A stretch of 38,428 nucleotides of DNA, from positions 1 to 38,428 of IMG/VR virus record IMGVR_UViG_3300007770_001202, one strand, 5' to 3'. The position numbers and the translations under genes were made by a program. The first letter of the stretch is position 1. Every line of letters starts with the position of its first letter. Source of the DNA: a virus. Shown piece after piece: positions 23,398 to 37,297 of this stretch. The notes beneath the pieces were generated by a model. It saw only the letters and a list, made by a program, of their open reading frames with translations. It made no database searches and was not told the DNA's origin.

Positions 23398-23436
23398 CAT
23401 TGATGTTATAATACCACTCAGCGCTGTTCGCTACAC
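23398..23436 (-). promoter_or_regulatory. Early-type promoter 1
   Basis: GTGTAGC box 23430-23436, 16 nt, TATTAT at 23408-23413, 6 nt, AATG. The predicted RNA starts with a GGGGGG-ATGAA-CCCCCC hairpin. The box supplies the GTG-TAG end of the 93-aa gene upstream. Confidence 0.8.
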
Positions 23437-23712
23437 GAGGTCCTGGGCGGGGAGGAAGTGAGCCTCGACGACGCACCGGACGAACCAGCGCTTCTTGGCG
23501 GCGGAGTACCGGACCCGCTTGTCACCGAACTCGTAGTTGGGACCGGTGACCGGGCTCTGCGCGAAGAGGATCAGCTCGTCCACGGTCAGGCCCATGCGAG
23601 TGACGGTGTCGGCGAAGCGCTGCATCGCGACCGGGTTGGGGGTGCTGACACCCATGATGCTCTGGTGAGGGAGGACCCGCTGGATGCGGACGGCTGAAGG
23701 GTCAGTGACCAT
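23431..23712 (-). CDS. Hypothetical 93-aa early protein
   Basis: Not recognised. It has MQRFADTVTRMGLTVDELIL (helical) and KRVRYSAAKKRWFVRCVVEA (basic, beta). GGAGAC precedes the ATG, and it follows the stop of the 39-aa membrane peptide by 12 nt. It ends LV-stop inside the next promoter's -35 box. Confidence 0.75.
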   Translation of the reverse strand: MVTDPSAVRIQRVLPHQSIMGVSTPNPVAMQRFADTVTRMGLTVDELILFAQSPVTGPNYEFGDKRVRYSAAKKRWFVRCVVEAHFLPAQDLV

Positions 23713-23724
23713 TACTGTTGTCTC

Positions 23725-23844
23725 CTAGTAGCGACGGTTGTTGCGGCGGCGCAGGTACAGGGCGTCCTCGATGAAGTTGGCCATGCCTACGATGGCGCAG
23801 CCGATGAGGATTCCGATGATGCCGCCTGTGATGAGTCCTGTCAT
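23725..23844 (-). CDS. 39-aa membrane microprotein
   Basis: Begins MTGLITGGIIGILIGCAIVG, a Gly/Ile-rich membrane helix, and ends in a basic tail (LYLRRRNNRRY). GGAGA precedes the ATG. First gene after promoter 2. Predicted inner-membrane peptide with a positively charged cytoplasmic end. Confidence 0.7.
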   Translation of the reverse strand: MTGLITGGIIGILIGCAIVGMANFIEDALYLRRRNNRRY

Positions 23845-23873
23845 GTGATCTGTCTCCGAGGGGGTGCTCCCCT

Positions 23874-23912
23874 CATTAGCTACATTATATCTAGTCGGCA
23901 GCCTCGCTACAC
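23874..23912 (-). promoter_or_regulatory. Early-type promoter 2
   Basis: GTGTAGC 23906-23912, TATAAT 23884-23889, then AATG. Leader hairpin GGGG-AGCA-CCCC. The box gives the GTG-TAG end of the 82-aa gene. Confidence 0.8.
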
Positions 23913-24155
23913 GATACCAATGCCACCGTTGTTTATGACCTGGGCCCGGATGAAGTTGGTCGCCTCCTCACGGGCCTGGGGGTCGACGGTGGTCCGGGTC
24001 TCGAACTCCTCCAGGAGGGCGGTGCCCCGGGCGATGGTGGAGGCGAGGTTGGCGACGTCGAGGTCGCCGTCCTGGGCACGGGCATTGGCCTGGAGCTCCT
24101 CGCAGAGTTCGATGGTGGAGAGTTCGGTGACGGGGGTGATGTTCGAGTTGGCCAT
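23907..24155 (-). CDS. Hypothetical 82-aa helical early protein
   Basis: Begins MANSNITPVTELSTIELCEE; mostly helical and acidic, ending in NFIRAQVINNGGIGIV. GGAGAAAA lies before the ATG at 24155, downstream of promoter 3. Longer reading upstream runs through the promoter and is not real. Confidence 0.75.
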   Translation of the reverse strand: MANSNITPVTELSTIELCEELQANARAQDGDLDVANLASTIARGTALLEEFETRTTVDPQAREEATNFIRAQVINNGGIGIV

Positions 24156-24184
24156 GATGCTTTTCTCCGGGGGGTTCATCCCCC

Positions 24185-24223
24185 CATTGATGTTATAATA
24201 CCACTTGGCGTGGCTCGCTACAC
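24185..24223 (-). promoter_or_regulatory. Early-type promoter 3
   Basis: GTGTAGC 24217-24223, TATTAT 24195-24200, AATG. Leader hairpin GGGGGG-ATGAA-CCCCCC. The box gives the GTG-TAG end of the 77-aa gene. Confidence 0.8.
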
Positions 24224-24451
24224 GAGGAAATCGAATTCGTTGATGTAGCCGAAGTCGGCCAGGCGCCACTCCTCGTTGTCCAGGGTGACACCCCAGAACT
24301 CGGGCTCAACCTCACCCCACTCATCGGCCGTCGTGGCTGCTGGATGGTAGCTGGTGATGGTGCCAGGCTTGCCGTAGAAGACGACCCGGTCTCCGATGCA
24401 AAAGCCGTCGATCCACCGCCGGCCGTCGGGTGATGTGGGAAGCGCCGACAC
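24218..24451 (-). CDS. Hypothetical SH3/KOW-like 77-aa protein
   Basis: Contains FCIGDRVVFYGKPGTITSYH and EFWGVTLDNEEWRLADFGYI, the pattern of small SH3-like barrels. GTG start at 24451, one base after the stop of the preceding gene, so the two are co-translated. Function unknown. Confidence 0.75.
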   Translation of the reverse strand: MSALPTSPDGRRWIDGFCIGDRVVFYGKPGTITSYHPAATTADEWGEVEPEFWGVTLDNEEWRLADFGYINEFDFLV

Positions 24452-24452
24452 C

Positions 24453-24695
24453 CTAGCAGTCCGCCTGGACCAGCTGGGTCGGTCGACAGTTGTAGATGCG
24501 TCCGATGACGTCCTCCACCATGATGTAGGTGTGATGGTCGAGGTTACCCTGCAGGACCTCGCGGACGATGCCGGTGAAGCCTGGGACCAGTTTCCAGTGC
24601 TCGGCCCGGGGGCCGAACCGCTGCAGGTGTCGGAAGGCCGGGGCGGTCATGCGGACGATGTCCCCGACCTCGAAGTCGGTGTTGGGATGTGCCAT
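24453..24695 (-). CDS. Hypothetical SH3/KOW-like 80-aa protein
   Basis: Begins MAHPNTDFEVGDIVRMTAPA and continues LVPGFTGIVREVLQGN, again a KOW/SH3-like barrel pattern. Its ATG overlaps the end of the 53-aa gene (TAGCATG arrangement). Similar in style to the 77-aa neighbour and the GDLV genes at the right end. Confidence 0.75.
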   Translation of the reverse strand: MAHPNTDFEVGDIVRMTAPAFRHLQRFGPRAEHWKLVPGFTGIVREVLQGNLDHHTYIMVEDVIGRIYNCRPTQLVQADC

Positions 24696-24696
24696 G

Positions 24697-24858
24697 CTAG
24701 TTGGTCTCCGTGACGACCCAGGCCTTCAGGGCGCTGGGGGTGTACTTGAGGAGGAGGTAGACCGCGGTGTCCGGGTCGTCAGCCTTGACGTTTCGGTAGT
24801 TGGTCTTGATCGGCCCACCCTGGAAGGAGTAGGTGAATGCGATGCGGTAGTTGTTCAT
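24697..24858 (-). CDS. Hypothetical 53-aa protein
   Basis: Begins MNNYRIAFTYSFQGGPIKTN and ends SALKAWVVTETN; short beta-helix protein. AGGA precedes the ATG. First gene behind promoter 4. Unrecognised. Confidence 0.7.
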   Translation of the reverse strand: MNNYRIAFTYSFQGGPIKTNYRNVKADDPDTAVYLLLKYTPSALKAWVVTETN

Positions 24859-24902
24859 GTTGAAGTCCTAGGAACTGTGGTTGTCACCGGGGGCTCATCC
24901 CC

Positions 24903-24941
24903 CATTAGCTACATTATAACCCACCGGCGTCCCCGCTACAC
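24903..24941 (-). promoter_or_regulatory. Early-type promoter 4
   Basis: GTGTAGC 24935-24941, TATAAT 24913-24918, AATG. Leader hairpin GGGGG-ATGAG-CCCCC. The box gives the GTG-TAG end of the 97-aa gene. Confidence 0.8.
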
Positions 24942-25229
24942 GGGATTCCCATCAAGGTCGGTGAGGACGGTGCAGTTCTCGAGGAGCGCCCGGGCTCGGC
25001 TCAGGCTCTTCAGTGCCCGCTCCAGCTCGTTCAGGGCACCGCCCAGGTCAGTGCCTAGGGGGGAGTTGCCCTGGGTGTAGAATGGAGGAGACATGTCAGC
25101 CGAAGCCTCGTACATCCCCTCAACGTCGAGGGCCACACCCTCGAGGAGCCTCACGGCATTGGTAAGTCGGAGCTGGTTGGTTGGGATCCGCATCCCTGCC
25201 CAGCATGCCATCCTCTGTCGATCGTCCAT
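24936..25229 (-). CDS. Hypothetical 97-aa helical protein
   Basis: Helical throughout (NQLRLTNAVRLLEGVALDVE, LNELERALKSLSRARALLEN). The ATG at 25229 follows AGGAGG and comes 1 nt after the stop of the 109-aa gene. Its helical layout resembles that gene, so the two may be partners or distant paralogues. Confidence 0.75.
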   Translation of the reverse strand: MDDRQRMACWAGMRIPTNQLRLTNAVRLLEGVALDVEGMYEASADMSPPFYTQGNSPLGTDLGGALNELERALKSLSRARALLENCTVLTDLDGNPV

Positions 25230-25230
25230 A

Positions 25231-25560
25231 CTACCAGGCCTCCTGGTTGCCGCGGCCGAAGAGGTCCGCCCCCACCGGGACGACCGGCACCTCACCCCCG
25301 GGGTCCTGGACAAAGTCCAGGCTGGTGAGCACGTCCTGCAGGCAGTCAACCGCCTCACGCACATCGAACAGGGCGCCGTAGAGGTCCTGCTGCAGGGTCA
25401 CGTTCCCGCGGACGACGGTCTCGGGACATGCCTTGGCATCATCATGAAGTGTCCGAATGTCATCGTTGAGTTGCCCGACGACCTCGAGGGCGGCATTAAC
25501 GCGCTGCTTCATATTCGGGACGCGGATGGTGCGAATGACTGGGATTCGGATGTCGCTCAT
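25231..25560 (-). CDS. Hypothetical 109-aa helical protein
   Basis: Begins MSDIRIPVIRTIRVPNMKQR; two helical blocks (VNAALEVVGQLNDDIRTLHD, DVREAVDCLQDVLTSLDFV) then VPVVPVGADLFGRGNQEAW. It starts 1 nt after the stop of the 56-aa gene, so the run 56 aa - 109 aa - 97 aa is one unit behind promoter 5. Confidence 0.75.
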   Translation of the reverse strand: MSDIRIPVIRTIRVPNMKQRVNAALEVVGQLNDDIRTLHDDAKACPETVVRGNVTLQQDLYGALFDVREAVDCLQDVLTSLDFVQDPGGEVPVVPVGADLFGRGNQEAW

Positions 25561-25561
25561 G

Positions 25562-25732
25562 CTAGTTGGACTCCAGGGTCGAGATGGTGTAGGGACTGTG
25601 GTCCTTGAGTCGGTTGAGATTGGACTCGAGGAGCCGGACAGCCTCGCTGGCGAACTCGAGGGTGAGGAATGGGACGGCGGCCCAGACTGGGAGGCCGTCG
25701 CGCTGGCCGTTCTTGAGGATGATGTAGGTCAT
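25562..25732 (-). CDS. Hypothetical 56-aa protein
   Basis: Begins MTYIILKNGQRDGLPVWAAV, then a helix (EFASEAVRLLESNLNRLKDH) and a polar end. GGAG precedes the ATG at 25732. First gene behind promoter 5. Another frame of the same DNA gives a longer but Pro/Arg-rich, unlikely product. Confidence 0.7.
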   Translation of the reverse strand: MTYIILKNGQRDGLPVWAAVPFLTLEFASEAVRLLESNLNRLKDHSPYTISTLESN

Positions 25733-25758
25733 GTGTTTTCTCCAGGGGGTTCATCCCC

Positions 25759-25797
25759 CATTAGCTACATTATAACTCGTCAGCGTCCCCGCTACAC
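25759..25797 (-). promoter_or_regulatory. Early-type promoter 5
   Basis: GTGTAGC 25791-25797, TATAAT 25769-25774, AATG. Leader hairpin GGGGG-ATGAA-CCCCC. The upstream gene ends (TGA) 4 nt before the box. Confidence 0.8.
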
Positions 25798-25801
25798 GGG
25801 A

Positions 25802-25945
25802 TCAGTGAGCCTCGATCGGAGCCGGAGCCTCCACGGTGGTGCCGTGGTCGAGGCGGCGAGCCCGCTTGGCCGGGCAATCGCCCGACAGCTGCATCAGGGC
25901 GATCATCACGCCGTTGGTGTCACCGATGGTCCGGAAGTACTCCAT
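25802..25945 (-). CDS. Hypothetical 47-aa protein
   Basis: Begins MEYFRTIGDTNGVMIALMQL and ends with an Ala/Pro-rich tail (TTVEAPAPIEAH). The frame is open further upstream to the end of the 114-aa gene, and GTG codons there are alternative starts, so the N-terminus is uncertain. Unrecognised. Confidence 0.5.
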   Translation of the reverse strand: MEYFRTIGDTNGVMIALMQLSGDCPAKRARRLDHGTTVEAPAPIEAH

Positions 25946-26018
25946 GTTCGCCGCCACCTGGGCCCGGTGCTCCGGGCTCACAGCGTGACGGATGAAGCAG
26001 TGGCAGTTGAGGTCGGTC

Positions 26019-26363
26019 TTAGGCCGCCTCCACGGACGCGGCGAACTCAGCCTCGATCTCGGCCTCGATGGCGTCGATGCGGCTCTTGAGGGCGAAGGCC
26101 TGGGACTGGAGCTTGTTGAGGCGGATGGCCCGCTTCTCGACTCGGCTCATCTCGCGGGCCAGGGCGACCAGCGGGGTGGCGGACTTGTTGGACGCCACGA
26201 TCTTCCCGACGTCGCCGCCGAACGTGAAGCCGTCGGTGTCGTGGGTGCGGACCAGGCGCCAGCGCTTGCCGTCGTGCTTGGTCTGGAAGTGACCGAACTG
26301 CCAGGTCTTGCGGACGGTGGGCTCGGTGGTCTCGGTGCTGTCAGTGTTTTCGGAGTTTGCCAT
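26019..26363 (-). CDS. Hypothetical protein, paralogue of the gene at 31896-32204
   Basis: A 114-aa protein. The shared core is W-FG-F-T-HDGK-WRLVR followed by VASNKSATPLVALARE and SRVEKR, then a coiled-coil end (LKSRIDAIEAEIEAEFAA). The paralogue has the same core and a similar helical tail. The small N-terminal domain may bind nucleic acid or protein and the tail may dimerise (inference). The ATG at 26363 is preceded by AAAGGAA. First gene behind promoter 6. Confidence 0.8.
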   Translation of the reverse strand: MANSENTDSTETTEPTVRKTWQFGHFQTKHDGKRWRLVRTHDTDGFTFGGDVGKIVASNKSATPLVALAREMSRVEKRAIRLNKLQSQAFALKSRIDAIEAEIEAEFAASVEAA

Positions 26364-26402
26364 GAGTGAAGTTCCTTTCGAGAACGGGTGGGGTTCATCC
26401 CC

Positions 26403-26441
26403 TATTAAGTACATTATATCTTGTCGGCGGCCGCGTTACAC
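26403..26441 (-). promoter_or_regulatory. Early-type promoter 6
   Basis: GTGTAAC 26435-26441, TATAAT 26413-26418, AATAGGGG start region. Leader hairpin GGGG-ATGAA-CCCC. Confidence 0.78.
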
Positions 26442-26454
26442 GCGGAGGGTGGGA

Positions 26455-26470
26455 GGGGACCGAAGTCCCC
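26455..26470 (-). terminator. UUCG-capped hairpin
   Basis: Minus strand GGGGAC-TTCG-GTCCCC directly after the 23-aa gene; flanking GGGA/TCCC extends the stem past a one-base bulge. Extremely stable UUCG tetraloop, but no T-tract follows, so it may be an RNA 3'-end protector rather than an intrinsic terminator. Confidence 0.5.
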
Positions 26471-26484
26471 GTCCCAGGGTCAAT

Positions 26485-26556
26485 CTAGCAGGTGGCAGTA
26501 GCCAGGGCGCCCAGGCAGAGGTTGACGATCGAGTAGGTTACGAGAAAAGCTGTCAT
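26485..26556 (-). CDS. 23-aa membrane micropeptide
   Basis: Begins MTAFLVTYSIVNLCLGALAT and is hydrophobic to its end. AAAGGA precedes the ATG with good spacing, it has its own promoter (7) and a downstream hairpin, so a dedicated transcript is likely despite the small size. Confidence 0.55.
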   Translation of the reverse strand: MTAFLVTYSIVNLCLGALATATC

Positions 26557-26592
26557 TGTGAAGTCCTTTCAGGACGGGTGGGGTTCATCCCC

Positions 26593-26631
26593 TATTAAGT
26601 ACATTATAACCCAGGGCCGGGTCGGTTACAC
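26593..26631 (-). promoter_or_regulatory. Early-type promoter 7
   Basis: GTGTAAC 26625-26631, TATAAT 26603-26608, AATAGGGG start region. Leader hairpin GGGG-ATGAA-CCCC; nearly identical to promoter 6. Confidence 0.8.
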
Positions 26632-26641
26632 GTGACCTGGG

Positions 26642-27100
26642 CTAAAGCCCCATCAGTCGGTCCTGGATGGCGAACAGGACTCCATCGGTCCTCTCCCAGG
26701 TCAGGAGCTCCTGCTCCGCCTGCTGCTTCTTCTCCATTGCGGCGAAGTGCTCGCGGTCCAGGCGGTCGCGCCAGGCGTCCTCCTCCTGCCGAAGGTCAGC
26801 TTCCCTGGACAGGCGGTCGATCATGCCCTCGATCTCCTCGAGGCGCATCTGGGAGTACCTCATCCACCTGGGGCGGATGCCATTCAGCTCCTTGTACCAG
26901 TCGCTGTACTGGGACGCCGCACCGCAGTGCAGGTACTCGTAGACGTTGGCGTACTCGTCCGCCAGGGACTCGCACGGCATCATCAGCAACTGCCAGCCCT
27001 CGGCCTCGGCCTGGGCCTTGAGCTCGGCGTTCCGAGCCCGGATGAAACCCAGGACGTCGGTGTTGGCGATGAGGGCGAGCTCGCGGTCAGAGTGGTTCAT
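26642..27100 (-). CDS. Hypothetical 152-aa helical protein
   Basis: Begins MNHSDRELALIANTDVLGFI; long charged helices follow (ARNAELKAQAEAEGWQLLMM, LEEIEGMIDRLSREADLRQE, MEKKQQAEQELLTWERTDG), so it is probably a coiled coil. Start at 27100 behind GGAGAG and promoter 8; reading further upstream passes through the promoter. Unrecognised. Confidence 0.78.
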   Translation of the reverse strand: MNHSDRELALIANTDVLGFIRARNAELKAQAEAEGWQLLMMPCESLADEYANVYEYLHCGAASQYSDWYKELNGIRPRWMRYSQMRLEEIEGMIDRLSREADLRQEEDAWRDRLDREHFAAMEKKQQAEQELLTWERTDGVLFAIQDRLMGL

Positions 27101-27132
27101 GTTTCTCTCCAGGGGGTTGGGGGTGCATCCCC

Positions 27133-27171
27133 CATTAGCTACATTATAACCCAGGGTCGGGTCCATTACAC
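27133..27171 (-). promoter_or_regulatory. Early-type promoter 8
   Basis: GTGTAAT 27165-27171, TATAAT 27143-27148, AATG. Leader hairpin GGGGG-ATGCA-CCCCC. The box gives the GTG-TAA end of the 78-aa gene. Confidence 0.8.
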
Positions 27172-27402
27172 GCGCCAGGAACCGGACACCCAGGTCAGGA
27201 TGCCGGACTGGGAGATGGCGCCCTTGATGTCGCCGATGCTCTCGGCCTGCCCCCAGGGGGTCCGTCGGACCAGCTTGAGGGCGGTGACCATGTTGACGAC
27301 CTGGGCGGTGTCGATGCCCACGGCAACGATCTCCACGCACATGCTGAGGTTTCGGTGGCGCCTCTCGACGCGGGCGGTAATGTCTGTGATGTCGTGTGTC
27401 AT
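27166..27402 (-). CDS. Hypothetical 78-aa protein on a leaderless mRNA
   Basis: Begins MTHDITDITARVERRHRNLS and continues MCVEIVAVGIDTAQVVNMVT. The ATG at 27402 coincides with the AATG start region of promoter 9, so the predicted mRNA has at most about one nucleotide before the start codon and no ribosome site. Unrecognised product; ends V-stop inside promoter 8. Confidence 0.75.
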   Translation of the reverse strand: MTHDITDITARVERRHRNLSMCVEIVAVGIDTAQVVNMVTALKLVRRTPWGQAESIGDIKGAISQSGILTWVSGSWRV

Positions 27403-27438
27403 TGATAGTATAATACCACTCAGCACTGTTCGCTACAC
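27400..27438 (-). promoter_or_regulatory. Early-type promoter 9 (leaderless)
   Basis: GTGTAGC 27432-27438, TATTAT 27410-27415, 6 nt, then AATG, whose ATG is the start codon of the 78-aa gene. No hairpin. Confidence 0.78.
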
Positions 27439-27444
27439 GAGGTC

Positions 27445-27519
27445 CTACTCGTCGGTGGCAGGAAGAAGCTTGTCACAGATGTACAGGAATGCGGCGAAGC
27501 CGACTAGGAAGGTAAACAC
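27445..27519 (-). CDS. 24-aa membrane micropeptide
   Basis: GTG start at 27519 right after the TAG of the 81-aa gene, behind GAGG. Sequence MFTFLVGFAAFLYICDKLLP then ATDE. Hydrophobic with an acidic end. Translation by coupling is likely; small size keeps confidence moderate. Confidence 0.5.
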   Translation of the reverse strand: MFTFLVGFAAFLYICDKLLPATDE

Positions 27520-27765
27520 CTACGCCTCCCCTCGGGCCGCACGACGTGCTGCCTTGCGCTGTCCCTCGCAGAACAGGATGGAGCCTCGGGCACCCTTGCT
27601 GTTGCTGAAGATGAGACGGCTGTACTTGGGTCCCATGTCAGGGACATCGAGGATGGCCTCGAGCCAGAGGTCGTAGCACTCAGCCACGTGTTCGACGGCG
27701 CCGATGGTGTCTACCTTGGCACACAGCTCGGCCATCAGGGTCTTGGGAATCGTGGGTCGGGACAT
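27520..27765 (-). CDS. Hypothetical 81-aa protein
   Basis: Begins MSRPTIPKTLMAELCAKVDT; helical N-terminal half and a basic tail (GQRKAARRAARGEA). It starts about 10 nt after the 31-aa membrane peptide, with AGGAG upstream. Unrecognised. Confidence 0.75.
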   Translation of the reverse strand: MSRPTIPKTLMAELCAKVDTIGAVEHVAECYDLWLEAILDVPDMGPKYSRLIFSNSKGARGSILFCEGQRKAARRAARGEA

Positions 27766-27775
27766 GTTGGTACTC

Positions 27776-27871
27776 CTAGAAGCAGAAGAGGATGATTGCG
27801 TAGAGGTAGCCGAAGCCACCCAGGAGGAAGGCGCCGCCGATGGCAGCAGGGTCAAATTCGAAGAGGTCCAT
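27776..27871 (-). CDS. 31-aa membrane micropeptide
   Basis: Begins MDLFEFDPAAIGGAFLLGGF and ends YLYAIILFCF. GGTGGAG precedes the ATG; it is the first gene of the transcript from promoter 10. One hydrophobic helix with an acidic N-terminus. Confidence 0.6.
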   Translation of the reverse strand: MDLFEFDPAAIGGAFLLGGFGYLYAIILFCF

Positions 27872-27898
27872 GTGGTCTCCACCAGGGCTGCATTGCCC

Positions 27899-27937
27899 CA
27901 TTAGCTACATTCTATCTGGTTCGGTCGCCCGCTACAC
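27899..27937 (-). promoter_or_regulatory. Early-type promoter 10
   Basis: GTGTAGC 27931-27937, TAGAAT 27909-27914, AATG. Leader hairpin GGGC-AATGCA-GCCC. Here the TAG of the -10 box is the stop codon of the 72-aa gene. Confidence 0.75.
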
Positions 27938-28130
27938 GAACTGCCCACAGGTTGTGGTAGCCGCTGTTCCAGGGCTCGATGTGCTGGGCACGCTCAGGCC
28001 ACCTGACGGTCACCTTGCCGAACCTCTTCGTCCGGACGGTGCCGACCACGGGGTCGGTGCCTGGGAGGTCGCGAGCAGGGTCCCAGATGTGGGTGACTCG
28101 ACTGCCGGGCATAATATACGTTTTGCTCAT
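27912..28130 (-). CDS. Hypothetical SH3-like 72-aa protein on a leaderless mRNA
   Basis: Begins MSKTYIMPGSRVTHIWDPAR; contains VVGTVRTKRFGKVTVRW, KOW/SH3-like. The ATG at 28130 starts at the predicted +1 of promoter 11 with no ribosome site. The stop TAG lies inside the -10 element of promoter 10, so the gene is fully enclosed by promoter elements. Confidence 0.75.
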   Translation of the reverse strand: MSKTYIMPGSRVTHIWDPARDLPGTDPVVGTVRTKRFGKVTVRWPERAQHIEPWNSGYHNLWAVRVAGDRTR

Positions 28131-28165
28131 ATCAGTATAATACCACTACTCACCCATCATTACAC
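28127..28165 (-). promoter_or_regulatory. Early-type promoter 11 (leaderless)
   Basis: GTGTAAT 28159-28165, TATTAT 28137-28142, 6 nt, then ATGAGC, the start of the 72-aa gene. Confidence 0.78.
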
Positions 28166-28235
28166 GAAGCGCCGTGGCCACCAGCAAGCCAAAGGCCAGG
28201 GCGAAAACGACCAGGGCGGCGAAGGGGTCAGTCAC
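28146..28235 (-). CDS. 29-aa membrane micropeptide
   Basis: GTG start at 28235 inside the last codons of the 157-aa gene (8-nt overlap), behind a G-rich site. Reads MTDPFAALVVFALAFGLLVA then a short basic end. It runs through the -35 box of promoter 11. One membrane helix. Confidence 0.5.
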   Translation of the reverse strand: MTDPFAALVVFALAFGLLVATALRVMMGE

Positions 28236-28701: not shown

Positions 28702-28731
28702 GCGCTTCCTTTCAGTCGGGGTCCATTCCCT

Positions 28732-28770
28732 CATTAGCTACATTATAACCCAGGCGACCGTGGGTTACAC
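28732..28770 (-). promoter_or_regulatory. Early-type promoter 12
   Basis: GTGTAAC 28764-28770, TATAAT 28742-28747, AATG. Leader has a weaker GGG-AATGGA-CCC hairpin. Confidence 0.75.
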
Positions 28771-28792
28771 GAGCCGGCGGATTTAATCAGAA

Positions 28793-29011
28793 CTAGTCAC
28801 ACCCGTCGAGGATGGACCGGAGGGCATCGACACGACCCCAGAGGTCAGTGAGTCGCTCTCCATTAAGGGCATTCCACTCAGCCTCTGCCGCCCGGTAGGA
28901 CGTCCACTCCACCAACCCCGCAGGGCTTTCAGGCGGCAGAGGCTTTGTATTCTGCAATGCCAGGGCAGCCTCAGTCAGCTCCTGGATGCTTTCTTCAATA
29001 ACTCGACTCAC
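28793..29011 (-). CDS. Hypothetical 72-aa helical protein
   Basis: GTG start at 29011 overlapping the TGA of the preceding gene. Helical and acidic (VIEESIQELTEAALALQNTK, ERLTDLWGRVDALRSILDG). Similar in layout to the adjacent 79-aa protein; may form a pair. Confidence 0.7.
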   Translation of the reverse strand: MSRVIEESIQELTEAALALQNTKPLPPESPAGLVEWTSYRAAEAEWNALNGERLTDLWGRVDALRSILDGCD

Positions 29012-29414: not shown

Positions 29415-29453
29415 CATTAGATAAATAATACCACGCGCAGAACTTGTTTACAC
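29415..29453 (-). promoter_or_regulatory. Early-type promoter 13
   Basis: GTGTAAA 29447-29453, TATTAT 29425-29430, then AATGAGAGGAGG. Short leader with an immediate ribosome site and no hairpin. Confidence 0.72.
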
Positions 29454-29957: not shown

Positions 29958-29996
29958 CATTAGCTACATTATATCCCAGCGCTACGCTGGTTACAC
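29958..29996 (-). promoter_or_regulatory. Early-type promoter 14
   Basis: GTGTAAC 29990-29996, TATAAT 29968-29973, AATG. Leader hairpin GGGGAA-TGG-TTCCCC. Confidence 0.8.
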
Positions 29997-30231: not shown

Positions 30232-30267
30232 TAATAATATAATATCACGCTCTTTGACAACTTACAC
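30229..30267 (-). promoter_or_regulatory. Early-type promoter 15
   Basis: GTGTAAG 30261-30267, TATTAT 30239-30244, 6 nt, AATGGAGG. The AATG is a start codon and GGAGG is a ribosome site for a second start. The box gives the GTG-TAA end of the 74-aa gene. Confidence 0.75.
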
Positions 30268-30789: not shown

Positions 30790-30828
30790 CATTGATAGTA
30801 TTATATCAACGGGCGCAGTTCGCTACAC
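30790..30828 (-). promoter_or_regulatory. Early-type promoter 16
   Basis: GTGTAGC 30822-30828, TATAAT 30800-30805, AATG. Leader hairpin GGAC-GATGCA-GTCC. The box gives the GTG-TAG end of the 57-aa gene. Confidence 0.8.
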
Positions 30829-31315: not shown

Positions 31316-31354
31316 CATTAAGATAATAATACCACCTGACGTGGCTGGTTACAC
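31316..31354 (-). promoter_or_regulatory. Early-type promoter 17
   Basis: GTGTAAC 31348-31354, TATTAT 31326-31331, AATG. Leader hairpin GGGGG-ATGGA-CCCCC. The box gives the GTG-TAA end of the 62-aa gene. Confidence 0.8.
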
Positions 31355-32204: not shown

Positions 32205-32246
32205 GTGTGAAGAGCCTCCTTGACTCAGATGGTGACTCCATGTCTC

Positions 32247-32285
32247 CATCTTTTTAATTATACCCCGACTTGGGGCCGGCTACAC
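32247..32285 (-). promoter_or_regulatory. Early-type promoter 18
   Basis: GTGTAGC 32279-32285, TATAAT 32257-32262. The leader differs: no GGGG, instead GATGG...CCATC pairing over a 13-nt loop. Confidence 0.72.
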
Positions 32286-32324
32286 GAGCCGCGTTTTCTT
32301 TTTCCGTGTCGAGGCACCTTGCCT

Positions 32325-32363
32325 CAACTCCTATATAATACCCCAGGCGCGGGTGGGTTACAC
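32325..32363 (-). promoter_or_regulatory. Early-type promoter 19, no clear gene before next promoter
   Basis: GTGTAAC 32357-32363, TATTAT 32335-32340. Leader begins with the perfect hairpin GAGGCA-AGG-TGCCTC. Only about 40 nt separate it from promoter 18, so it either doubles promoter 18 or drives a relic; a 15-codon TTG frame ends in the next box. Confidence 0.7.
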
Positions 32364-32369
32364 GCGCGA

Positions 32370-32537
32370 CTAGTTATAGATCCGCTTGATAAGCTTCCGC
32401 TTCCCGTTGGGAATCTGCTTCCAGATCGTGCCGCTCCAGACGTTGATGCACTCGGCGTGGAACAGGCTGGTGGGTCCGATCTTGAACCGCTTCCCGTTCT
32501 TGTCCACCCCGGTGACGATGTAGATCAGTTCAGTCAC
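32370..32537 (-). CDS. Hypothetical 55-aa basic protein
   Basis: GTG start at 32537 inside the last codons of the 72-aa gene (8-nt overlap). Sequence has ELIYIVTGVDKNGKRFKIGP and a basic end (PNGKRKLIKRIYN). Unrecognised, beta-like. Confidence 0.65.
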   Translation of the reverse strand: MTELIYIVTGVDKNGKRFKIGPTSLFHAECINVWSGTIWKQIPNGKRKLIKRIYN

Positions 32538-32748
32538 CCGCGAACTCCACGAACTGGGAGTCGGCGTAGACCAGCTCCTCGAAGTGACCAGGGATAACCT
32601 CCTCGATCCCGACGAAGCCGGGGGAGGGATCCAGCCCGCACTCGAGCGAGACGTCCTCCAGGACCTCGGTGATCTCGACCACCCGCGATCCGTTGTACTC
32701 AGTGTCGACCATCACTCGATCGCCGACCTTGAAGACCTGAAATGCCAT
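32530..32748 (-). CDS. KOW/SH3-like 72-aa protein
   Basis: Begins MAFQVFKVGDRVMVDTEYNG, then SRVVEITEVLEDVSLECGLD. This is a small KOW-like barrel with an acidic end. GGAGGA precedes the ATG at 32748. First gene behind promoter 20; same general type as the GDLV genes at the right end. Confidence 0.77.
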   Translation of the reverse strand: MAFQVFKVGDRVMVDTEYNGSRVVEITEVLEDVSLECGLDPSPGFVGIEEVIPGHFEELVYADSQFVEFAGD

Positions 32749-32775
32749 GTTGTTTCCTCCGGGACTCCATTGCCC

Positions 32776-32814
32776 CAACTCCTATATAATATCCCAGGCA
32801 CACGTGCGTTACAC
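32776..32814 (-). promoter_or_regulatory. Early-type promoter 20
   Basis: GTGTAAC 32808-32814, TATTAT 32786-32791, then GTTGGGGC. The -10 and downstream bases match promoter 19. Leader has a GGG...CCC hairpin. Confidence 0.77.
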
Positions 32815-32817
32815 GTG

Positions 32818-33051
32818 CTAGCCGAAGTCGAGCAGGTCCTGCACGGTGCAGCCGATGGCCTCGGCCCTGGCGAGCAGCAGCTGGTCGTCGTCCATGCGGT
32901 CAGCCTGCAGCTGGACCAGGGCGTCGAGGATGTGCTCCCTCTCGCCGAACTCGCTGAGAAGGTACTGGACCTCTTCCTCAGTCATGTCGTAGATGGAACC
33001 TGGGTCGATGGTGAACAGGTCTGCGATCTCTGCAATGCGCTGTGGCGTCAT
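32818..33051 (-). CDS. Hypothetical 77-aa acidic protein
   Basis: Begins MTPQRIAEIADLFTIDPGSI, then DMTEEEVQYLLSEFGEREHI. Acidic and helical. AGGAGA precedes the ATG at 33051. Single-gene transcript from promoter 21. Unrecognised. Confidence 0.75.
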   Translation of the reverse strand: MTPQRIAEIADLFTIDPGSIYDMTEEEVQYLLSEFGEREHILDALVQLQADRMDDDQLLLARAEAIGCTVQDLLDFG

Positions 33052-33079
33052 GTGCGTGTCTCCTAGAGGGTGTATCCCC

Positions 33080-33118
33080 CATTAGCTACATTATAACCCA
33101 GGCACCCCCAGGCTACAC
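33080..33118 (-). promoter_or_regulatory. Early-type promoter 21
   Basis: GTGTAGC 33112-33118, TATAAT 33090-33095, AATGGGGG. Leader hairpin is weaker (GGG with CCC). Confidence 0.77.
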
Positions 33119-33262
33119 GAGCTCGAAAACAAAAGAAAACCCGCACCTGGGAAAGAAAAGAAGATCCAGGGAGCCCGGGCGTGTAATGAAAGAAAGTTTT
33201 GGATCCGCGGTCCGTCACGTGTAAGGAAGCGCAGGGTGTGGTATATTGGTCAGGCTGGGAGC
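33119..33262 (-). terminator. Non-coding spacer with hairpin and pyrimidine tracts
   Basis: No gene is supported. On the minus strand GATCCA (33200-33205 side) can pair with TGGATC (33163-33168 side), followed by TTCTTTTCTTT, and a second tract TTTTCTTTTGTTTTC follows CCC-AGGTGC-GGG. Likely end of the transcript from promoter 22. Confidence 0.4.
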
Positions 33263-33556
33263 TTACAGGTTATCCAGGCTGCCCGTATCGAACGGGTCCA
33301 CCGGAACGCCTGAGGCACTGTCCAGGGCGGCCGCCCTTCGAGCGCTCAGCTCGTTGGTCGTCATCCTCGGACCCAGCCCGATCAGCGCCGCAGCGCTCCC
33401 GCTGTGTAGCGGCTGGTCCATCCCATCCCAGAGCACCCAGGCTCCGAGGTGTCTGTCCCGCATCAGGACAATACCCTTCCTTCCGGTCACCCGCTCCTCA
33501 ACCCGTGTCCCGGTGTCGAAGTCCTTCTCAAGGTCATTCAGCGTTCTCTCAATCAA
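33263..33556 (-). CDS. Hypothetical 97-aa protein
   Basis: TTG start at 33556, GGAGG 9 nt upstream. Contains FDTGTRVEERVTGRKGIVLM and HLGAWVLWDGMDQPLHSGSA, KOW/SH3-like, then an Ala/Arg helical end. Single-gene transcript from promoter 22. Confidence 0.75.
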   Translation of the reverse strand: MIERTLNDLEKDFDTGTRVEERVTGRKGIVLMRDRHLGAWVLWDGMDQPLHSGSAAALIGLGPRMTTNELSARRAAALDSASGVPVDPFDTGSLDNL

Positions 33557-33570
33557 GGTGTGATTCCTCC

Positions 33571-33609
33571 ATTCAAGTACATTATACCTGGCGATGGTGC
33601 TCGCTACAC
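33571..33609 (-). promoter_or_regulatory. Early-type promoter 22
   Basis: GTGTAGC 33603-33609, TATAAT 33581-33586, then GAATGGAGG. Short leader with the ribosome site almost at the RNA start and no hairpin. Confidence 0.75.
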
Positions 33610-33612
33610 GAC

Positions 33613-33933
33613 CTAGGGGTCCTCTTCCTCGTCCAGGTCATTGGGGCGCCAGACTCTGACCAGGGCGCCGATAGGCAACCACAGCAGGACGTAGGCGGCA
33701 AACAGGATGGCCCAGCCGTCCAGGGCAACAGTCATGTCCTGTAGCGGTCGGGGCACTGCACCCTGCAGCAGGTCAACAGCTCGGCCGATGGCCAGACCGG
33801 AACCCACAGCGAGTACCAGCCCGACCACCAGCGTCACCAAAACACCAAGGGCGTTTCCTACGACCTGGCCCAGCAGCCTGAAGACATCAGTCATCTTGGC
33901 GCTAGTAACTTCTTTTTTTTGATCATCACTCAT
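33613..33933 (-). CDS. Two-helix membrane protein
   Basis: A 106-aa protein with hydrophobic segments GNALGVLVTLVVGLVLAVGS and GWAILFAAYVLLWLPIGALV and an acidic C-terminus (DLDEEEDP). Predicted inner-membrane protein, possibly a holin or antiholin or an exclusion protein. No ribosome site; TACTAT lies 6 nt before the ATG, so this mRNA too may be leaderless, though its -35 region does not match GTGTARC. Confidence 0.75.
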   Translation of the reverse strand: MSDDQKKEVTSAKMTDVFRLLGQVVGNALGVLVTLVVGLVLAVGSGLAIGRAVDLLQGAVPRPLQDMTVALDGWAILFAAYVLLWLPIGALVRVWRPNDLDEEEDP

Positions 33934-33993
33934 GTATTAATAGTATCCCGGAAAGAAAGAGTGTTCATTAAAAAGAAAGTCTCTCGAGAAAAG

Positions 33994-34045
33994 AAATCCT
34001 AAAAGGAAATCCTAAAAGGAAATCCTAAAAGGAAAGTCTAAAAGG
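33994..34045. repeat. Four tandem 13-nt repeats
   Basis: AAATCCTAAAAGG occurs at 33994-34006, 34007-34019 and 34020-34032, with a variant AAAGTCTAAAAGG at 34033-34045. The last unit contains the stop codon of the 62-aa gene, so the array grew into its 3' end. No gene lies in 33934-34037. Confidence 0.85.
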
Positions 34046-34226
34046 AATTTCCCTCGTCTCCCTCCGGCCTAGGCTCGTGGTGAAGCTTAACTCGGAACGA
34101 CACCTCAGCGCGGTGTTCCCCATGCCAGATCAACACCTTATTCCCGTCGCGACGGACGTCGTCCAGGGAATTAAAGGCATCCCGCAGCGAGCGGTAGATC
34201 TCGTCGATGACGTCATCCCTTGTCAC
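34038..34226 (-). CDS. Hypothetical 62-aa protein
   Basis: GTG start at 34226 behind GGAGATG, 15 nt after the tRNA-Ser 3' end. Reads VIDEIYRSLRDAFNSLDDVR then NKVLIWHGEHRAEVSFRVKL: a helix followed by a beta hairpin. Unrecognised. Its stop lies in a tandem repeat array. Confidence 0.7.
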   Translation of the reverse strand: MTRDDVIDEIYRSLRDAFNSLDDVRRDGNKVLIWHGEHRAEVSFRVKLHHEPRPEGDEGNSF

Positions 34227-34241
34227 GGCTCATCTCCGGCG

Positions 34242-34329
34242 TGGCGGAGGGGGTGGGATTCGAACCCACGGTGGCTCGCGCCACGGCGGTTTTCAAGACC
34301 GCTACCTTCGTCCACTCGGTCACCCCTCC
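34242..34329 (-). tRNA. tRNA-Ser(TGA)
   Basis: Acceptor GGAGGGG pairs with CCCCTCC, discriminator G, CCA encoded at 34242-34244. Anticodon stem-loop GCGGT-CTTGAAAA-CCGC gives TGA. The long variable arm is typical of Ser; T arm GTGGG-TTCGAAT-CCCAC. Its 5' end overlaps the last codons and stop (TGA) of the gene at 34320. Confidence 0.97.
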
Positions 34330-34607
34330 CTCCCGATCACAATCAGCTCCGAGGCCAGCCACCTCTCCTCCCGGCCCTCCCGGAGTAGCCAGACTTCCTG
34401 GGTCTCCGTCTCGTCCATCAGCCTGATCTGGTGAACACGGACCACGATCCCTGGTGTTGCCGGACCCATCGGCTTGAATCCCGGCTGGATGACGCCCCGA
34501 GGTGGATGCCAGCCCACTGCCAGGTCGCCAGGGTGGAAGACGTCGATGTCCGGATACGTGGCCACTGATAATGGTACCGCCCGTCGTCGAGGATGTACAA
34601 TGTCCAT
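34320..34607 (-). CDS. SH3-like 95-aa protein ending inside tRNA-Ser
   Basis: Core VFHPGDLAVGWHPPRGVIQP, then PGIVVRVHQIRLMDETETQE and RWLASELIVI. It is typical of the small barrel proteins that dominate the right end of the window. The chosen ATG (34607) gives MDIVHPRRRAVPLSVATYPD; reading further upstream to 34679 enters low-quality sequence. No strong ribosome site, so the start is uncertain. The stop codon overlaps the tRNA acceptor stem by about 10 nt. Confidence 0.65.
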   Translation of the reverse strand: MDIVHPRRRAVPLSVATYPDIDVFHPGDLAVGWHPPRGVIQPGFKPMGPATPGIVVRVHQIRLMDETETQEVWLLREGREERWLASELIVIGREG

Positions 34608-34799
34608 TCTTCGTGTACAATGGGTCCGTCTTGGGGTTAAGCGCCAGCAAAAGACCCAAAGATAAAAAAAGACCCCCATCGCTCCTAAGATAAGAAAGTC
34701 CTAGTCCCACTCCCTCTCCTCCACTATCCACCACAATCCTCCACCGTATGACACGTATCCACTGTCACGCGCACGTAGGGCCCAGTCGCAGTGGCCAAG

Positions 34800-35039
34800 T
34801 CATCCACCGTAGGAATCCCAGTCAGGACTGCCGATCGCTGGGTACAGCCAAGTACAGCCAATGGGCGTCACCACGCCGCAGTCCAGGACCACCACGAAGC
34901 CCCCATACTTGGTGTATTCTGAGGCGTCGAGCGACAGCACCAGGACAGGGCGGACTGGGTGGAAGTGGTCGTGCTTTGCGTCCGGTGGGTCGATGTCTGT
35001 GTGTAGCATGTCCCCTATGTGGATGTCCTCTATCAGCAT
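34800..35039 (-). CDS. GDLL-family small protein A
   Basis: A 79-aa protein beginning MLIEDIHIGDMLHTDIDPPD, with VRPVLVLSLDASEYTKYGGF and VVVLDCGVVTPIGCTWLYPA. It is a close paralogue of the next two genes (IxVGDLLxxDID..., LVLxxSLE, VLDCGV). Small beta barrel of unknown role. AAGGAAG lies upstream of the ATG. Confidence 0.78.
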   Translation of the reverse strand: MLIEDIHIGDMLHTDIDPPDAKHDHFHPVRPVLVLSLDASEYTKYGGFVVVLDCGVVTPIGCTWLYPAIGSPDWDSYGG

Positions 35040-35060
35040 CTCTCTTCTCTCTCTGCTTCC

Positions 35061-35363
35061 TTAGGGGTTTTCTTTATTAGCCGGCGTGGAACTGCCCTCG
35101 AGATCGGGGTCATCCATTCCGTCGAAGTACAGGTCAGCGGACTGGTCGCCTGGCCAGAGCCAGACACAGCTGATGGAGGTTCGGACGCCACAGTCGAGCA
35201 CAGTCACGTAGCCAGCCTCCCCACTCCCCTCAGCGGTCTCCAACGACACTACCAGAACCAACCTCTCGTCACGAACACCTTCCTCGATATCCGTATATCG
35301 GATGTTCGGTGGATCGATGTCTGTCCGAAGCAGGTCACCTACGTTGATGTCCGCTCTCAGCAT
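35061..35363 (-). CDS. GDLL-family small protein B
   Basis: A 100-aa protein beginning MLRADINVGDLLRTDIDPPN, then VLVVSLETAEGSGEAGYVTV and LDCGVRTSISCVWLWPGDQ, with a longer acidic tail than its paralogues. The ATG overlaps the end of the 68-aa gene by 7 nt, coupling them. Confidence 0.78.
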   Translation of the reverse strand: MLRADINVGDLLRTDIDPPNIRYTDIEEGVRDERLVLVVSLETAEGSGEAGYVTVLDCGVRTSISCVWLWPGDQSADLYFDGMDDPDLEGSSTPANKENP

Positions 35364-35563
35364 GCGTCTTCTTCAATCGGCCAGACCTGTGTGTCGCGAA
35401 CATGACGCACCACTCCCCTGTCCAGGATGCTGACGTTCGGACCACCATGCTCGGCGGGGATGGGGATGACGTCCAGGACCAGCACCGGTCGCGATATCAT
35501 GACACCGCTCTCTATACTATCCCGGTGAAGCAGGTCACCGACCTTGATCTCCATTAGCAGCAT
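35357..35563 (-). CDS. GDLL-family small protein C
   Basis: A 68-aa protein, MLLMEIKVGDLLHRDSIESG then VLVLDVIPIPAEHGGPNVSI and LDRGVVRHVRDTQVWPIEED. Third member of the tandem family. A second ATG at 35554 overlaps the TAA of the previous gene (TAATG) and may be the true start. Confidence 0.75.
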   Translation of the reverse strand: MLLMEIKVGDLLHRDSIESGVMISRPVLVLDVIPIPAEHGGPNVSILDRGVVRHVRDTQVWPIEEDAC

Positions 35564-35814
35564 CTCTCGTCCCCTCGCTTCTGGTTGACATGGTGCCTGT
35601 GACACAGCCGCTCAGTCGGGGCCAGGTAGGTGGAGCCGGTCAGGACTAGCAGGTCATCTCCTCCCCACCGGTCCATACCATTCAGCGGCTGATTGTACAG
35701 CACCATGAACCTCCGCTCGATGATCTCTTCCCCATCGGTGATGGGCTCCAGCTCCGAGGTGATGATCCCGAATGTATCGTATGGCTCGTTGTGGACCAGG
35801 TCGCCGACTTTCAT
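35554..35814 (-). CDS. GDLV-family small protein
   Basis: An 86-aa protein, MKVGDLVHNEPYDTFGIITS then RRFMVLYNQPLNGMDRWGGD and a basic Cys/His-containing end (LCHRHHVNQKRGDERCC). SH3-like start shared with its neighbours. Overlaps the upstream 49-aa gene by 4 nt (ATGA). Confidence 0.77.
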   Translation of the reverse strand: MKVGDLVHNEPYDTFGIITSELEPITDGEEIIERRFMVLYNQPLNGMDRWGGDDLLVLTGSTYLAPTERLCHRHHVNQKRGDERCC

Positions 35815-35960
35815 CGGACCACCTCTACTCTGCTAAGAATAATCCGATCATGTCTACCGTCTGCCCACAAGACAACCGGGTCTAGACCAGTCCAGCCTAC
35901 AATGATGCCCGTCATCCGGGATTCAGAGTTTAGATTCTTCACCAAGTCACCGATCTTCAT
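35811..35960 (-). CDS. GDLV-family small protein
   Basis: A 49-aa protein: MKIGDLVKNLNSESRMTGII, VGWTGLDPVVLWADGRHDRI, ILSRVEVVR. The minimal form of the family. Its first 14 nt overlap the end of the previous gene, with NEDR-stop and MKIGD read from the same bases. Confidence 0.75.
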   Translation of the reverse strand: MKIGDLVKNLNSESRMTGIIVGWTGLDPVVLWADGRHDRIILSRVEVVR

Positions 35961-36138
35961 TGATCACCTCCAGCCTCTCTTCGTGAATCTGAATGATCTT
36001 GCCGCGTAGTACTAGAAGCCACCATCCCCTGACAGTCAAGGGAAACCGATGCGGATCCTGTTTTATCAGGACGCCAACATCACCCTTGAACTGAGGGTAG
36101 CCTTCTTCGCAGAGCTTCACCAGGTCACCGATCTTCAT
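35947..36138 (-). CDS. GDLV-family small protein
   Basis: A 63-aa protein: MKIGDLVKLCEEGYPQFKGD, VGVLIKQDPHRFPLTVRGWW, ending LEVINEDR. Both its start and its end lie in 14-nt overlaps with neighbours. SH3-like barrel predicted; role unknown. Confidence 0.77.
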   Translation of the reverse strand: MKIGDLVKLCEEGYPQFKGDVGVLIKQDPHRFPLTVRGWWLLVLRGKIIQIHEERLEVINEDR

Positions 36139-36331
36139 TAACAACCTCCAGGTCATCTACATTCATGGTCCAGACGCCATCTTCACATAGGACCTCAGCC
36201 GCCTGGTAGTAGTCAACCAGGTGAACGAGGTTATCATCCACATCATAGACGTGCAGCACCACACCGAATTCCTCAGGGTGACGCCTGCTCGCCGACTGGA
36301 ATCCCAGTTTAACCAGGTCACCGGTCTTCAT
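36125..36331 (-). CDS. GDLV-family small protein
   Basis: A 68-aa protein: MKTGDLVKLGFQSASRRHPE, EFGVVLHVYDVDDNLVHLVD, ending DLEVVNEDR. It overlaps by 14 nt with the HD hydrolase gene upstream and with the next GDLV gene downstream. Confidence 0.77.
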   Translation of the reverse strand: MKTGDLVKLGFQSASRRHPEEFGVVLHVYDVDDNLVHLVDYYQAAEVLCEDGVWTMNVDDLEVVNEDR

Positions 36332-36848
36332 AGTAATGTCCAAGGAGATGAAGGGTATTGCCTAGGAGAGTCTTGTCTCCCTCCTGCAGGACACCGAGGA
36401 GCAACAGCTTCTCGGCCATATAGACCTTGGCGAAGTCAGGATCGTTTGCCCTGATATCGACTGAGTTGCTGATGAGGTCGGCCAGCTTGATGGTCTTCGC
36501 CCTTGGCGAGGCCTTGGCTGTGTGTGCTCGATCCTTGGCCTTACGGACCTGTCGGGTGCCGTCGGCCGGGGTGCTAACATCGGTCAGGTCAGAGACCAGG
36601 GCGGCGACATCGTCTCCGAACTCAGCCCGGATATCATCGATAGTGTGGTCAGTATCCTCCACTACGTCGTGAAGTAGGGCAGCGGCCAACATGGCATCGT
36701 CGTGCTCCACCCCACTCACGATCCCCATCACCTCGCTGGGATGGTGGATGTATGGGATTGCGGTGTACTTCCGGACTTGTCCCTCGTGCGCGCGGGTTGC
36801 GAACTCAAACGCCCTTTGAACAATCTCACTGCGGTTAGTCATCCTCAT
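36318..36848 (-). CDS. SpoT/MESH1-like HD hydrolase (second copy)
   Basis: A 176-aa protein. HD motifs are RKYTAIPYIHHPSEV, AAALLHDVVEDTDHTIDD and KTIKLADLISNS, as in single-domain (p)ppGpp hydrolases. It lacks the N-terminal tag of the copy at 14907, so it would be made in the cell after infection. Its start shares 14 nt with the upstream gene's end and its own end (YEDR-stop) shares 14 nt with the next start, so it sits in the GDLV overlap chain. Substrate (alarmone or other nucleotide) is inferred. Confidence 0.87.
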   Translation of the reverse strand: MRMTNRSEIVQRAFEFATRAHEGQVRKYTAIPYIHHPSEVMGIVSGVEHDDAMLAAALLHDVVEDTDHTIDDIRAEFGDDVAALVSDLTDVSTPADGTRQVRKAKDRAHTAKASPRAKTIKLADLISNSVDIRANDPDFAKVYMAEKLLLLGVLQEGDKTLLGNTLHLLGHYYEDR

Positions 36849-37053
36849 TGATAATCCTCCAGTTGGTGTACTCAAGTCGAGTCACCCAGGTTCGACCGTC
36901 CTCATTCAAGATCCTCATCCGATCTGTCACCTGTCCCGGTCCAAGGACCCCAGGTGGAATTATCTCCAGGACTACTGCGGTCCCGCCGTGTGCCTCAATC
37001 AGGTCTCCCACTTTGATATGGTCACCGAGCATCATGGTCCTAGTGGTCTTCAC
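36835..37053 (-). CDS. GDLV-family small protein
   Basis: A 72-aa protein with GTG start in the 14-nt overlap. Sequence MLGDHIKVGDLIEAHGGTAV, VLEIIPPGVLGPGQVTDRMR, ending WRIINEDD. An internal start nearer the VGD motif is possible. SH3-like. Confidence 0.75.
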   Translation of the reverse strand: MKTTRTMMLGDHIKVGDLIEAHGGTAVVLEIIPPGVLGPGQVTDRMRILNEDGRTWVTRLEYTNWRIINEDD

Positions 37054-37261
37054 TGATTACATCCAAAGCATTATGCCTCACTAGTCGTTTGCTGCCGTTA
37101 TCCATCAGCAACCAGGCACACATAACTGGCTCCATGCGCATCAGGTCAACCTTCAGAGAGGCGACCTCAGTCACAAGGGCTCGCCTGCCAACCAGTCCAC
37201 CTGCATCGCAGGAGCTGTTGACGCGAACCATGTCACCAGGTTGGGGCTTTGACCTCTTCAT
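37040..37261 (-). CDS. GDMV-family small protein on a leaderless mRNA
   Basis: A 73-aa protein: MKRSKPQPGDMVRVNSSCDA, GGLVGRRALVTEVASLKVDL, ending ALDVISEDH. The ATG at 37261 coincides with the AATG region of promoter 23, so translation of the whole chain probably begins on a leaderless message. Confidence 0.78.
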   Translation of the reverse strand: MKRSKPQPGDMVRVNSSCDAGGLVGRRALVTEVASLKVDLMRMEPVMCAWLLMDNGSKRLVRHNALDVISEDH

Positions 37262-37297
37262 TAAGGTTATTCTATCACCCGGATGGGTGCGTTACAC
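37259..37297 (-). promoter_or_regulatory. Early-type promoter 23 (leaderless)
   Basis: GTGTAAC 37291-37297, TAGAAT 37269-37274, 6 nt, AATG whose ATG starts the 73-aa gene. Drives the overlapping GDLV/HD chain. Confidence 0.75.

Follow-up and report, generated by a model that had tools for sequence, protein, structure and literature searches.

What reads the -35 position of promoters that have the -10 box and the spacing of sigma70 promoters, yet carry something other than TTGACA upstream? The question is raised by the viral record IMGVR_UViG_3300007770_001202 from IMG/VR (38,428 nucleotides; the whole stretch is called the window here), a fragment of a clade of marine T4-like jumbo phages with genomes of about 240-290 kb. 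Its right part holds an array of minus-strand promoters with the box GTGTAR, and its left part encodes a small protein, r4, in which a Cys/His motif is followed by the helix-turn-helix (HTH) of sigma70 region 4.2 (Table 1). The answer that we consider probable is that an RNA polymerase (RNAP) with a host core reads the array, and that r4 supplies the region 4.2 for the box, which takes the form GTGYA in related phages.

A scan of both strands of the window with GTGTARN-N16-TAKWAT finds exactly 23 sites, all on the minus strand from 23408 to 37297, and none on the plus strand or left of 23.4 kb; the reversed control pattern has no match in the window, and first-order shuffles of the right 16.4 kb yield 0.007 matches per shuffle. 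This bears out the earlier note on this DNA, which had reported 23 copies of one geometry between 23.4 and 37.3 kb and none further left. The distance from GTGTA to TAKWAT is 18 nt in 23/23, with the other spacings from 12 to 24 giving 0 or 1 match each, and the consensus, CGTGTARCS-N15-G-N-TATWAT, is that of an extended -10 promoter. The base 5' of the box is C at every site, so the core is CGTGTA; the R after GTGTA is A in 12 and G in 11, and the C that follows is present in 19 of the 23. A G at extended -10 position -14, two bases ahead of the -10 hexamer, is invariant, the hexamers are TATAAT (12), TATTAT (9), and TAGAAT (2), and 6 nt past them lies AATG, exact or nearly so (A 19, A 20, T 21, G 19 of 23), as had been noted for most copies. 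With a sigma70-type -10 box and a hexamer register at 17 bp throughout, GTGTAR in all 23 sites, and no site in the window with TTGAC at 17-19 nt, these are promoters of sigma70 geometry with a non-standard -35 box, as originally described; the description "near-identical" holds for the conserved boxes and overstates the likeness of the spacers, which differ. The array is most likely a phage promoter block at one end of a T4-like jumbo genome, with one promoter for each small gene or short operon.

Related phages were gathered from IMG/VR through PrkA, which the window encodes, and not through the promoter pattern; records of 236 to 293 kb are among them, and G059, G067, most of G073, and the left end of G071 lie outside the comparison. 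The long consensus of the window, too strict a pattern for exact matching, returned nothing from IMG/VR, and a near-identity DNA search of cultured phages with the right half of the window gave no match. The motif, whose absence from relatives the earlier note had named as a sign against its proposal, is kept in them: the arrays are confined to one strand and keep the spacing of the window, and their -35 slot is occupied by GTGTA or GTGCA. In G005 a single strand bears 20 sites within the first 18 kb, the sequence read contains 24 sites in G058 (60 kb), 13 in G060, and 17 in G063, and smaller sets are present in G009, G015, G020, G023, and G025. Counted over ten GTGYA records, GTGYA at 18 nt occurs 23, 25, 10, 10, 24, 15, 19, 8, 7, and 5 times, and TTGAC at 17-19 nt, in matching order, 0, 4, 0, 0, 1, 1, 1, 3, 1, and 1 times; six TTGAC records have 0-1 GTGYA sites versus 8-18 TTGAC sites. 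The consensus lines (ctCGTGTAaCg....G.TATaAT in the window, CGTGcAAAa....tGTATAAT in G058, cGTGcAa....GTGGTATAAT in G063, TTCTGTAAAAAA....aTaTGGTATAAT in G075, and CTTGAC....gtgTATAAT in G016 of the TTGACA clade) thus place GTGTA, GTGCA, or TTGAC in the same -35 slot, depending on the phage. A tree of PrkA groups the TTGACA phages in a single supported clade, next to the G005 group.

The r4 protein matches Pfam Sigma70_r4 with E 8.6e-8, and its hmmsearch matches to solved RpoD/SigA proteins (1e-7 to 1e-5) cover region 4.2 only. The N-terminal motif comprises C12, H16, C23, C28, and C40 in the window and is a candidate zinc or iron-sulphur site; homologues across the clade are 77 to 96 residues long, with four invariant cysteines and a near-invariant histidine ahead of the region 4.2 HTH. 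A structure model is of low confidence (mean pLDDT, the predicted local distance difference test, 66.5), and Foldseek places it weakly among sigma chains (best E 0.31). Among its weak matches by fold is sigma region 4 in complexes with WhiB. In the recognition helix, TRERIRQIE of RpoD corresponds to TRMRICQIE in r4, with two of four -35-contacting positions kept; the changed RpoD positions are E585 and R588, which contact the -35 element in sigma70.

The class of r4 varies with the box. Class A, with the recognition helix TRMR[IV]CQ[IL]EK, is encoded in all GTGYA records that include the r4 locus. Among the TTGACA records, G042, G046, and G048 are examples with a class B helix (VSFPRISQIE), G040 has a class C form, and r4 was not found in G011, G016, G032, and G033. 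The simpler statement that every TTGAC phage lacks r4 was dropped, since seven carry the divergent class B and G040 carries class C. These comparisons suggest that the type of -35 box goes with the class of r4, GTGYA with class A and TTGACA with another form or with none found. The earlier note had put forward the region-4-like protein as reader of the box, and it stands as the best candidate, being region 4.2 only, conserved in the clade, and absent or altered in the TTGACA sister clade.

If r4 contributes region 4.2 alone, the rest of a sigma factor should lie elsewhere, and profile searches find phage sigma proteins in G009, G027, G058 (two), G071, and G075; a further one, L397, is in a metagenome-assembled genome (MAG) that also holds an r4 locus (L316). 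The long sigmas (G027, G075, G071, and L397) contain regions 1.2, 2, and 3 and stop just after region 4.1 (LTPREEKVLRLRFGID...), and shorter sigma-2 proteins without a recognisable region 3 are found in G009 and G058. The two pieces are complementary: on Pfam Sigma70_r4 the truncated sigma covers positions 4-18 and r4 19-49, and on E. coli RpoD the sigma spans residues 344-567 and r4 569-601. Neither r4 nor any of the four long proteins has regions 2, 3, and 4 in one chain. The same MAGs encode bacterial sigmas of full length. A region 4.2 hidden by a frameshift downstream of the truncated sigma was considered and rejected, a six-frame hidden Markov model (HMM) search being negative. About 200 nt upstream of the sigma open frame, both G027 and G075 have a promoter of the array type. 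By sequence comparison, the two proteins together would cover regions 2 to 4 in each of G027, G075, and G071, and the same regions without region 3 in G009 and G058, which suggests that r4 and a truncated sigma form a split sigma factor in at least six relatives. In the 38-kb window r4 is the only half present.

We propose that host core RNAP transcribes the array, the -10 box and the invariant -14 G being read by sigma regions 2 and 3, and the GTGYA box, in the exact -35 slot, by region 4.2 from the separate protein r4. In several relatives a phage sigma with regions 2 to 4.1 would join r4 to make up the split factor; in the phage of the window the partner may be a sigma encoded beyond the fragment, or the host sigma after displacement of its region 4. 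Since r4 would have to be present first, it would be either carried in the virion or made from another promoter, with the array then delayed-early. The timing is most likely early or delayed-early, for which the terminal block of small open reading frames (ORFs) is suggestive.

Several observations weigh against this proposal. The association of box and r4 comes down to a single evolutionary switch in the PrkA tree, and common descent by itself could account for it; it supports the pairing of box and r4 without proving it. G027 and G075 have a class A r4 yet a shifted box (TTCTGTAAAA), TGTAAAA, about 2 bp further upstream. A sigma partner was not found, at the profile sensitivity used, in the near-complete G005 (235 kb) or in most other class A records. 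If r4 is not injected, true early promoters must act before its synthesis. Finally, a conserved ORF of 91-98 residues with an HTH-like pattern, A3, begins 1-17 nt past the sigma stop in G027, G075, G071, and L397, and could supply the missing domain. That A3 completes the sigma in the sigma-bearing relatives, with r4 a separate regulator linked to the box by phylogenetic coincidence, is rather unlikely in our estimation: the position of A3 and the divergent box of G027 and G075 fit it, but A3 is without a database match, Pfam, PHROGs, and a fold search show no detectable similarity between it and region 4, and it was not found in G000, G005, G009, G058, and G060, all of which have GTGYA arrays. 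Its structure model is of low confidence (mean pLDDT 67.3), and Foldseek places it nowhere.

The array might instead be read by unmodified host holoenzyme, through a host sigma that tolerates or prefers GTGYA or an extended -10 that makes the -35 element nearly irrelevant, with r4 otherwise employed. Early genes should need no phage factor, the extended -10 G and TATAAT are strongly conserved, and T4 early promoters, likewise strong UP/-35/TGn/-10 promoters ahead of many small early genes, use host sigma70 plus phage-specific conserved positions (PMC2988021). The T4 early promoters fit the host elements well (PMC2988021), whereas those of the array do not fit TTGACA. An irrelevant -35 element, however, would not stay invariant (CGTGTA in 23/23). 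Moreover, GTGYA occurs only at the level of the reversed control in four r4-containing bacterial MAG assemblies outside their phage contigs, the close TTGACA relatives have a different r4 or none found, and sigmas truncated at region 4.1 need a region 4.2 from elsewhere; we thus regard reading by host holoenzyme as unlikely, if the foremost of the alternatives to be kept in mind. A different precedent is sigma appropriation in T4, where phage proteins take over the -35 contact, and its MotA/AsiA-dependent middle promoters combine a host -10 with a phage box in place of the -35 element, as in the array (PMC2988021, PMC6755090). A separate MotA-like activator could accordingly bind GTGYA while host sigma70 with a remodelled region 4 reads the -10 box, and one array ORF has a sub-threshold match to MotA_activ (E 0.081), not meaningful alone. 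We consider such an activator improbable: the array box is centred at about -33 in a fixed register that is exactly that of a -35 element (-36 to -30), with the TTGACA spacing of the sister clade, unlike the MotA box at -30, and no significant match to MotA or AsiA was found among the window proteins scanned, a search that did not extend genome-wide or to relatives. A further difference from T4 is that the proposed reader of the box belongs to sigma region 4.2. The MotA-like activator that the earlier note had envisaged is one option only, the sigmas lacking region 4.2 in six relatives pointing to a split sigma instead.

Table 1. Positions of the r4 gene and the array promoters in the window, and of A3 in related records.
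Feature	Coordinates	Strand	Content	Leader or arrangement	ORF behind promoter
r4	2719..2973	+	84 aa; Cys/His motif and sigma70 region 4.2 HTH (TLQQIGDIFDLTRMRVCQLEK); candidate -35 box reader		
Promoter 1	37269..37297	-	GTGTAAC-N16-TAGAAT		
Promoter 2	33581..33609	-	GTGTAGC-N16-TATAAT		
Promoter 3	33090..33118	-	GTGTAGC-N16-TATAAT	5' hairpin leader	32818-33051
Promoter 4	32786..32814	-	GTGTAAC-N16-TATTAT	hairpin leader	32530-32748
Promoter 5	32335..32363	-	GTGTAAC-N16-TATTAT	tandem with promoter 6	
Promoter 6	32257..32285	-	GTGTAGC-N16-TATAAT		31896-32204
Promoter 7	31326..31354	-	GTGTAAC-N16-TATTAT	hairpin leader	31005-31289
Promoter 8	30800..30828	-	GTGTAGC-N16-TATAAT		30486-30761
Promoter 9	30239..30267	-	GTGTAAG-N16-TATTAT		30001-30216
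Promoter 10	29968..29996	-	GTGTAAC-N16-TATAAT	hairpin leader	29706-29930
Promoter 11	29425..29453	-	GTGTAAA-N16-TATTAT		29250-29399
Promoter 12	28742..28770	-	GTGTAAC-N16-TATAAT		28228-28701
Promoter 13	28137..28165	-	GTGTAAT-N16-TATTAT		
Promoter 14	27909..27937	-	GTGTAGC-N16-TAGAAT	hairpin leader	
Promoter 15	27410..27438	-	GTGTAGC-N16-TATTAT		
Promoter 16	27143..27171	-	GTGTAAT-N16-TATAAT	hairpin leader	26642-27100
Promoter 17	26603..26631	-	GTGTAAC-N16-TATAAT	hairpin leader	
Promoter 18	26413..26441	-	GTGTAAC-N16-TATAAT	hairpin leader	26019-26363
Promoter 19	25769..25797	-	GTGTAGC-N16-TATAAT	hairpin leader	25562-25732
Promoter 20	24913..24941	-	GTGTAGC-N16-TATAAT	hairpin leader	24697-24858
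Promoter 21	24195..24223	-	GTGTAGC-N16-TATTAT	hairpin leader	23907-24155
Promoter 22	23884..23912	-	GTGTAGC-N16-TATAAT	hairpin leader	23725-23844
Promoter 23	23408..23436	-	GTGTAGC-N16-TATTAT	hairpin leader	23087-23368
A3 (loci L303/L311, L304/L310, L313, L397)	G027:220240-220515; G075:257498-257773; G071:8105-8395	+; +; -			

A Shine-Dalgarno sequence (SD) and a small ORF follow almost every array site within about 16-50 nt. The predicted transcripts often open with AATGGGGGATGAACCCCC, continue with a short GC hairpin, and reach GGAG and a start codon; a 5' hairpin of a G-run and a C-run stands directly ahead of the ribosome site in 15 of the 23 predicted leaders. Leaders that fold at -6 kcal/mol or better number 16/23, versus 39% among windows drawn at random from the array and 17% among shuffled leaders, and the hairpins possibly have a role in mRNA stability or translation control. 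The leaders of G005 have no G-run/C-run hairpin, but in several of them a small hairpin surrounds the SD (GCCTGGGGAGGC). Of the downstream proteins tested, all small, most lack a significant match in Pfam or PHROGs; an HD-domain phosphohydrolase is the exception.

The left half of the window contains genes for PhoH, a transfer-messenger RNA (tmRNA), PrkA, SpoVR, DUF444, and a GroEL-like protein, and the GC content changes where the array begins, from 34-50% in 1-22000 to 54-63% in 22000-38428. The PrkA, SpoVR, and DUF444 genes adjoin one another (6972-11439), an arrangement kept across the clade. The phage-encoded tmRNA (2980-3344; tag ANDSNYSTYALAA) lies beside r4, and the PrkA-centred loci L019, L020, L022, and L026 of records lacking r4 showed no tmRNA. 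On the other side of r4, positions 2640-2719 and the homologous intergenic regions of several relatives carry a late-promoter-like CATATTTA that is divergent from r4 and directed toward PhoH; expression of r4 as a late gene from an upstream TAAATATG was dropped as a candidate, the motif reading CATATTTA toward the divergent PhoH. A TGTACA palindrome upstream of r4 in G012, G021, G023, G027, G060, and G075 might be an autoregulatory site.

The terminase of G005 is T4-like, the nearest being that of Flavobacterium phage immuto (41%). All large relatives checked encode a gp55-like late sigma, and the late-promoter-like motifs CATATTTA and ACTATTTA are enriched upstream of genes. A phage-encoded multisubunit RNAP was considered and rejected, there being no RpoB match in 11 records. 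The MAG bins bearing r4 (n=4) fall in four unrelated bacterial groups, so that binning is uninformative on the host. Two r4-bearing contigs binned in MAGs of unrelated groups, PBIO01000025.1 (L317, 101 kb) and NHDW01000006.1 (L316, 306 kb), are probably phage, and the former carries a GTGYA array.

Sharing of a sigma function between two polypeptides is familiar from SigO-RsoA of B. subtilis. In that pair the division runs between whole domains, region 2 and region 4, whereas the phage proteins are divided inside region 4, between 4.1 and 4.2, and derive from RpoD. Minimal single-HTH sigmas have been reported together with RpoD-like sigmas in group 2 T4-like jumbo phages (Iyer et al. 2021, PMC7824862), and r4 is very probably of this minimal kind; its passages on these sigmas treat the two types as alternatives and describe neither a promoter box nor truncation of the RpoD-like partner at region 4.1. 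No description of a split or bipartite phage sigma factor, or of a GTGYA -35 motif, was found in the open literature, to which the search was confined and by which novelty is not proven. The findings suggest a phage-encoded, free-standing sigma piece that redirects host RNAP, in a form not described before.

We also put forward, more tentatively, that the whole marine jumbo clade may run its early programme with a sigma70 split inside region 4, a phage protein of regions 2-4.1 acting with a separate zinc-type -35 reader, of changed specificity and matched to the clade-specific GTGYA box, on dozens of small genes. If our proposal is correct, these phages would be an example from nature of promoter specificity altered through exchange of a single part of sigma, the helix that reads the -35 element, provided as a free-standing subunit, while dozens of promoters in sister phages changed to match. 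The co-evolution of sigma region 4.2 and the -35 box would become directly testable, and a defined promoter/sigma pair would be at hand for orthogonal expression. The "minimal sigma factors" of jumbo phages, single-HTH proteins so far unexplained, would likewise gain a promising role.

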